Part shown: in pieces, positions 4,172 to 24,168 of the stretch
How the letters are laid out: each line of letters starts with the position of its first letter
How positions within the stretch are numbered: the first letter of the stretch is position 1
Assembly: GCF_048128805.1 (NCBI RefSeq)
Contig: NC_135998.1
Coordinates: 14,731,656-14,795,655 of the forward strand
DNA length: 64,000 nucleotides
Direction: 5' to 3'
Origin: Centroberyx gerrardi
Lineage: Eukaryota > Chordata > Actinopteri > Beryciformes > Berycidae
Position numbers and translations under genes: made by a program
The notes under the pieces: model-generated
Seen by the model: only the letters and a program-made list of their open reading frames with translations
Databases searched by the model: none
Told to the model about the DNA's origin: nothing

Positions 4172-24168
<19,997 letters not shown>

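Follow-up and report, generated by a model that had tools for sequence, protein, structure and literature searches.

Gene content of the window

The window analysed here is a 64,000-nucleotide stretch of Centroberyx gerrardi DNA. On its plus strand we found a full coding model of an SK2 (KCNN2)-type gene, with a coding span from 4172 to 24168 (about 20 kb); mammalian KCNN2-type genes are larger than this. The exons were found with short known motifs, and their edges were set from the splice sites and the open frame. Exon 1 (4172..4939) is drawn from the first in-frame ATG as the predicted start codon. It is followed on the same strand by exon 2 (5364..5459), exon 3 (13998..14416), exon 4 (14731..14872), which carries the pore with its GYGD motif, exon 5 (15176..15286), exon 6 (15394..15521), exon 7 (21020..21089), and exon 8 (23893..24168), which encodes the C-terminus and includes the stop codon. 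The calmodulin-binding domain begins in exon 6, which has CAC CA at its end and the donor gtaggt (6 of 9 consensus positions), and exon 7 begins with A TTG AG. Every intron of the model is of the GT-AG type. The joined frame is open throughout and gives 672 amino acids with the microexon described below and 669 amino acids without it.

The gene product matched the SK2 chain 9vu9_A of the PDB, the longest SK2 chain listed, with 1020 bits (E printed as 0), whereas chains named only SK4 reached 355 bits at most. Another chain, 9o48_A, gave 716 bits, and its name lists SK4 first and then a small-conductance channel. Three Pfam domains were found in the product, namely SK_channel (PF03530), Ion_trans_2 (PF07885, the pore), and CaMBD (PF02888). 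In addition, its 12 C-terminal residues are identical to those of 9vu9_A. No SK1 or SK3 chain was found among the 19 sequences matched by the product. Thus, the choice of SK2 over SK1 and SK3 rests on the closeness to SK2 and on the known C-terminal tails of SK1 and SK3. Judged by its sequence, the gene is KCNN2 (SK2).

Other coding segments were also seen in the window. At 29496-29726 on the plus strand there is a GTPase domain segment (MMR_HSR1), which we take to resemble a DRG-type GTPase. Three plus-strand open frames at 52476-62109 gave matches to the PHO4 phosphate transporter family, of which two exceed the Pfam cut-off, and presumably belong to an SLC20A-type gene. Meanwhile, an open frame at 46691-47008 on the minus strand had no Pfam match; by eye, we take it to resemble a START-domain (STARD7-like) protein.

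A nine-base microexon in the SK2-type gene

The intron between exons 6 and 7 is 5,498 bases long and contains AGCTCGAAA at 17785..17793 (plus strand), which is flanked by caatag on the 5' side and gtaagt on the 3' side. Its inclusion places Ala-Arg-Lys after His-Gln and gives HQ-ARK-LRS, its skipping gives HQ-LRS, and the frame is kept both ways. The Gln is retained in either case because the microexon and exon 7 both begin with A. The first-pass annotation of this DNA had proposed nine bases between a valid acceptor and a gtaagt donor, in phase with exons 6 and 7, that would encode ARK after His-Gln in the SK2 calmodulin-binding domain. Both parts of this proposal held, given the AG and GTAAGT borders, the open frame, and the CaMBD of the SK2-type product. 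The element at 17785-17793 has the properties of a microexon (no more than 30 bases, in frame, consensus splice sites) and, like SK2-b, places Ala-Arg-Lys in the calmodulin-binding domain with HQ before it and LRS after it. Furthermore, visual inspection of the edges of exons 6 and 7 revealed no other donor or acceptor that could be the source of ARK. As far as its DNA can tell, the microexon is real and intact, and it is orthologous to the known one.

As a null model for a random origin, the 5,498-base intron was shuffled 5,000 times with its dinucleotides preserved. The strict pattern (AG, an in-phase ARK-coding 9-mer, and GTAAGT) was found in 0 of the 5,000 shuffles, and the relaxed pattern, with only AG and GT around the in-phase 9-mer, in 12. 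The bare ARK-coding 9-mer is common, since about 36% of the shuffled introns contained it and 8 copies lie on the plus strand of the window, and this frequency speaks for a chance AG-9-GTAAGT string whose in-phase reading is ARK by coincidence. Nevertheless, the full pattern did not appear in any shuffle, the string lies in exactly the intron where it is expected, and the previous AG is 97 bases away, so that we consider the probability of a chance string negligible. The exon 6-7 intron holds three frame-keeping candidates in which AG and GTRAGT enclose 3-27 bases; the microexon is 97 bases away from the preceding AG, and the other two are 17 and 23 bases away. Across both strands of the window, strings of 3-30 bases with a GTRAGT donor and the previous AG at least 90 bases off number three, and the microexon is one of them.

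Comparison with known SK2 forms

The calmodulin-binding domain of the window was aligned with chain 3sjq_C over 73 residues at 134.4 bits, and this alignment is gapless across ARK. The other eight SK2 sequences (E up to 1e-20) gave 99.7-121.4 bits against the same domain. A three-residue gap at ARK was found in seven of these eight (1qx7_D, 5wbx_B, 6ale_B, 1g4y_B, 9vu9_A, 9o85_A, and 8v2g_A), with the alignment of the eighth, 1kkd_A, lying outside the comparison. We take structure 3sjq to be the rat SK2-b complex, although its match record names SK2 only. With this identity, the gapless alignment agrees with the earlier claim that mammalian SK2-b carries ARK at the same point. The gene type, the three residues, and their position between HQ and LRS are the same in 3sjq and in the window. 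The window copy differs in its lineage, which is a fish, and in a Ser for Thr and a few nearby substitutions.

A chicken SK2 variant with three residues was reportedly described by Matthews 2005. Scholl 2014 and Zhang 2012 are said to be the original papers behind the statements on the calcium sensitivity of SK2-b and on calmodulin conformation. Excerpts of PMC6048120 name both SK2-a and SK2-b as forms of SK2 and give a lower calcium sensitivity for SK2-b of rat or chicken, which is in line with the lower sensitivity that the first-pass annotation had attributed to this form. The chicken variant is of the SK2-b type with lower calcium sensitivity (PMC6048120, citing Scholl 2014), and this likeness is taken from the literature and not from sequence. 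In our searches of the open-licence literature, outside which most subscription journals lie, we found no paper on a KCNN microexon in fish. In addition, the main text of four papers with zebrafish microexon data had no mention of kcnn.

Splice sites and sequence motifs of the microexon

The microexon has a weak 3' splice site (AG at 17783..17784). From -20 to -3, 44% of the bases are pyrimidines, compared with 61-94% at the other seven acceptors of the gene. A polypyrimidine run of 15 bases (17746..17760) lies 24 bases back from the microexon, and four yUnAy branch-point-like sites were found at -42 to -75. The region 17688..17782 is free of AG, and the previous AG is 97 bases away, compared with 20-59 bases at the seven other acceptors; in the window, 0.54% of the 3,918 AGs on the plus strand attain this distance. 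Meanwhile, the 5' splice site GTAAGT (17794..17799) agrees with 8 of 9 consensus positions, like the donors of exons 1 and 7, and is stronger than the exon 6 donor with its 6 of 9.

A long AG exclusion zone and a weak 3' splice site are traits of neural microexons that depend on SRRM3/4, and both are present here. According to passages of PMC8797185, the eMIC-dependent exons of Drosophila have long AG exclusion zones and a UGC close to the 3' site, and extracts from PMC10551640 describe neural microexons as having a weak tract together with UGC. The strong own donor together with the weaker upstream donor is the opposite of the fly eMIC set, and the passages of PMC8797185 state that mammalian microexons do not share this donor-strength pattern with the fly set.

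The weak adjacent 3' splice site, with its 44% pyrimidine, could also be expected of an ancestral exon that is no longer spliced in Centroberyx gerrardi and of which the DNA only remains. However, decay would be expected in such a relic, and the nine bases, the phase, the AG, and the GTAAGT are all intact. Weak 3' sites are, moreover, normal in neural microexons according to extracts from PMC10551640. We therefore consider a relic very improbable.

The first-pass annotation had read a TGC just upstream as fitting the SRRM4 type. A TGC motif of the SRRM3/4 type is indeed present at 17777..17779 (plus strand), at -8 from the microexon. However, TGC is equally near two of the seven ordinary acceptors, those of exon 3 (-10) and exon 6 (-8), and of 3,873 AGs counted in the window, 24% have it within the 20 bases ending with the AG. 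Thus, TGC was rejected as discriminating evidence for SRRM4, and SRRM4 control is weakly supported. The microexon resembles neural microexons under SRRM3/4 in being a tiny in-frame exon with a long AG-free zone, a weak 3' site, and a nearby TGC, but its TGC is not above background. The 97-base AG distance and the set-back pyrimidine run look like better arguments for a regulated microexon than TGC.

In addition, TGCATG, which we take to be an RBFOX-type motif, was found at 17833..17838 (plus strand), at +40 of the microexon. The exon 6-7 intron contains six copies of TGCATG, against about 1.3 expected from its length alone. At 4.2% of the window positions, TGCATG lies within the next 100 bases. 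TGCATG is likewise found within 100 bases of two of the seven ordinary donors, those of exons 3 and 7, and the copy at +40 was rejected as RBFOX evidence because of this. Neither TGC nor TGCATG alone shows neural control of the microexon.

The presence of both motifs at ordinary exons of the same gene, together with the strong donor (8 of 9), would fit a real exon that is included constitutively or in non-nervous tissue and does not act as a neural switch. On the other hand, the remoteness of the previous AG and the weak adjacent tract speak against this reading, as do the solved SK2 chains, which exist both with and without ARK, and the naming in print of both SK2-a and SK2-b (PMC6048120, in excerpts). 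Constitutive or non-neural inclusion is thus unlikely in our opinion.

The same intron also includes a long CT-rich microsatellite at 16106-16219, which precedes the microexon by about 1.6 kb, and TCTCTC occurs in the intron in 36 overlapping copies. The microsatellite might bind pyrimidine-tract proteins.

Proposed function

The reading of the microexon as an SK2-b orthologue is based on the exact sequence and frame, the SK2-type match of the gene, the gapless alignment with 3sjq_C, the absence of the strict pattern from all 5,000 shuffles, the AG distance, and the splice sites. As a whole, the best explanation, which we hold with high confidence, is that the nine bases are orthologous to the SK2-b cassette microexon of KCNN2. 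The microexon would be skipped by default, included in some neurons or hair cells, calcium-desensitising, and probably of bony-vertebrate age.

According to this explanation, the weak 3' splice site, with its tract set back and a branch point that is probably far upstream, would lead to default skipping. Some neurons or hair cells would nevertheless include the microexon, helped by microexon splicing factors. Its inclusion would add Ala-Arg-Lys to the calmodulin-binding domain, calmodulin would sit differently on the domain, and the channel in this form would need more calcium to open. Excerpts of PMC8209339 state that the calmodulin conformation differs between SK2 splice variants and that a three-residue SK2 variant works at olivocochlear synapses. 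By analogy with these known variants, we infer that the lower calcium sensitivity and the tissue-specific inclusion may also hold in Centroberyx gerrardi.

Age and annotation of the splice variant

With its sequence in this fish and the variant itself in bird and mammal, SK2-b probably dates back to the last ancestor shared by all bony vertebrates. The microexon of the window looks like an old, already described splice variant in another species and not a new switch. If it is expressed, an SK2 splice switch for calcium tuning has been kept for more than 400 million years. Isoforms of SK1 (KCNN1) presumably have a similar three-residue stretch, AQK, at the same position of the calmodulin-binding domain. 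The microexon could then be older than bony vertebrates, having arisen in a single SK gene before the vertebrate genome duplications and surviving in SK1 (AQK) and SK2 (ARK); we propose this only tentatively and give it slightly less than even weight. If such a pre-duplication origin is true, with fish included, few switches that tune an ion channel by three residues would be as old. A search for relatives with exon 3 as the query gave 37 pattern matches in genome_contigs and 7 in viral_contigs, and none of them was confirmed.

The first-pass annotation had also regarded the exon as likely missing from annotations, and this is unsupported as stated. With MicroExonator, 16.1% of 402 microexons conserved between mouse and zebrafish were absent from the Ensembl zebrafish annotation, according to extracts from PMC7821500. 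As just 16.1% of the 402 are missing in this account, most mouse-conserved zebrafish microexons are annotated. The microexon provides a concrete case for checking fish annotations for missing tiny exons. In addition, passages of PMC11524865 report that zebrafish hair cells express kcnn2, and given these cells, the splice switch could be tested in zebrafish.

Possible variants at the gene ends

Two minor observations concern the ends of the gene product. After exon 7, a possible acceptor, tgtctccag, was seen at 21492-21500, followed by ATGCACTAA. It could provide a short alternative C-terminus (Met-His-stop) and is probably due to chance. At the other end, the in-frame ATG of exon 1 lies 127 codons ahead of residue 128, where the match to 9vu9_A starts, and the resulting N-terminal extension (4172-4552) looks Cys- and His-rich. 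It may correspond to SK2-L, the long form known from mammals, for which excerpts of PMC5334391 give 207 extra residues.
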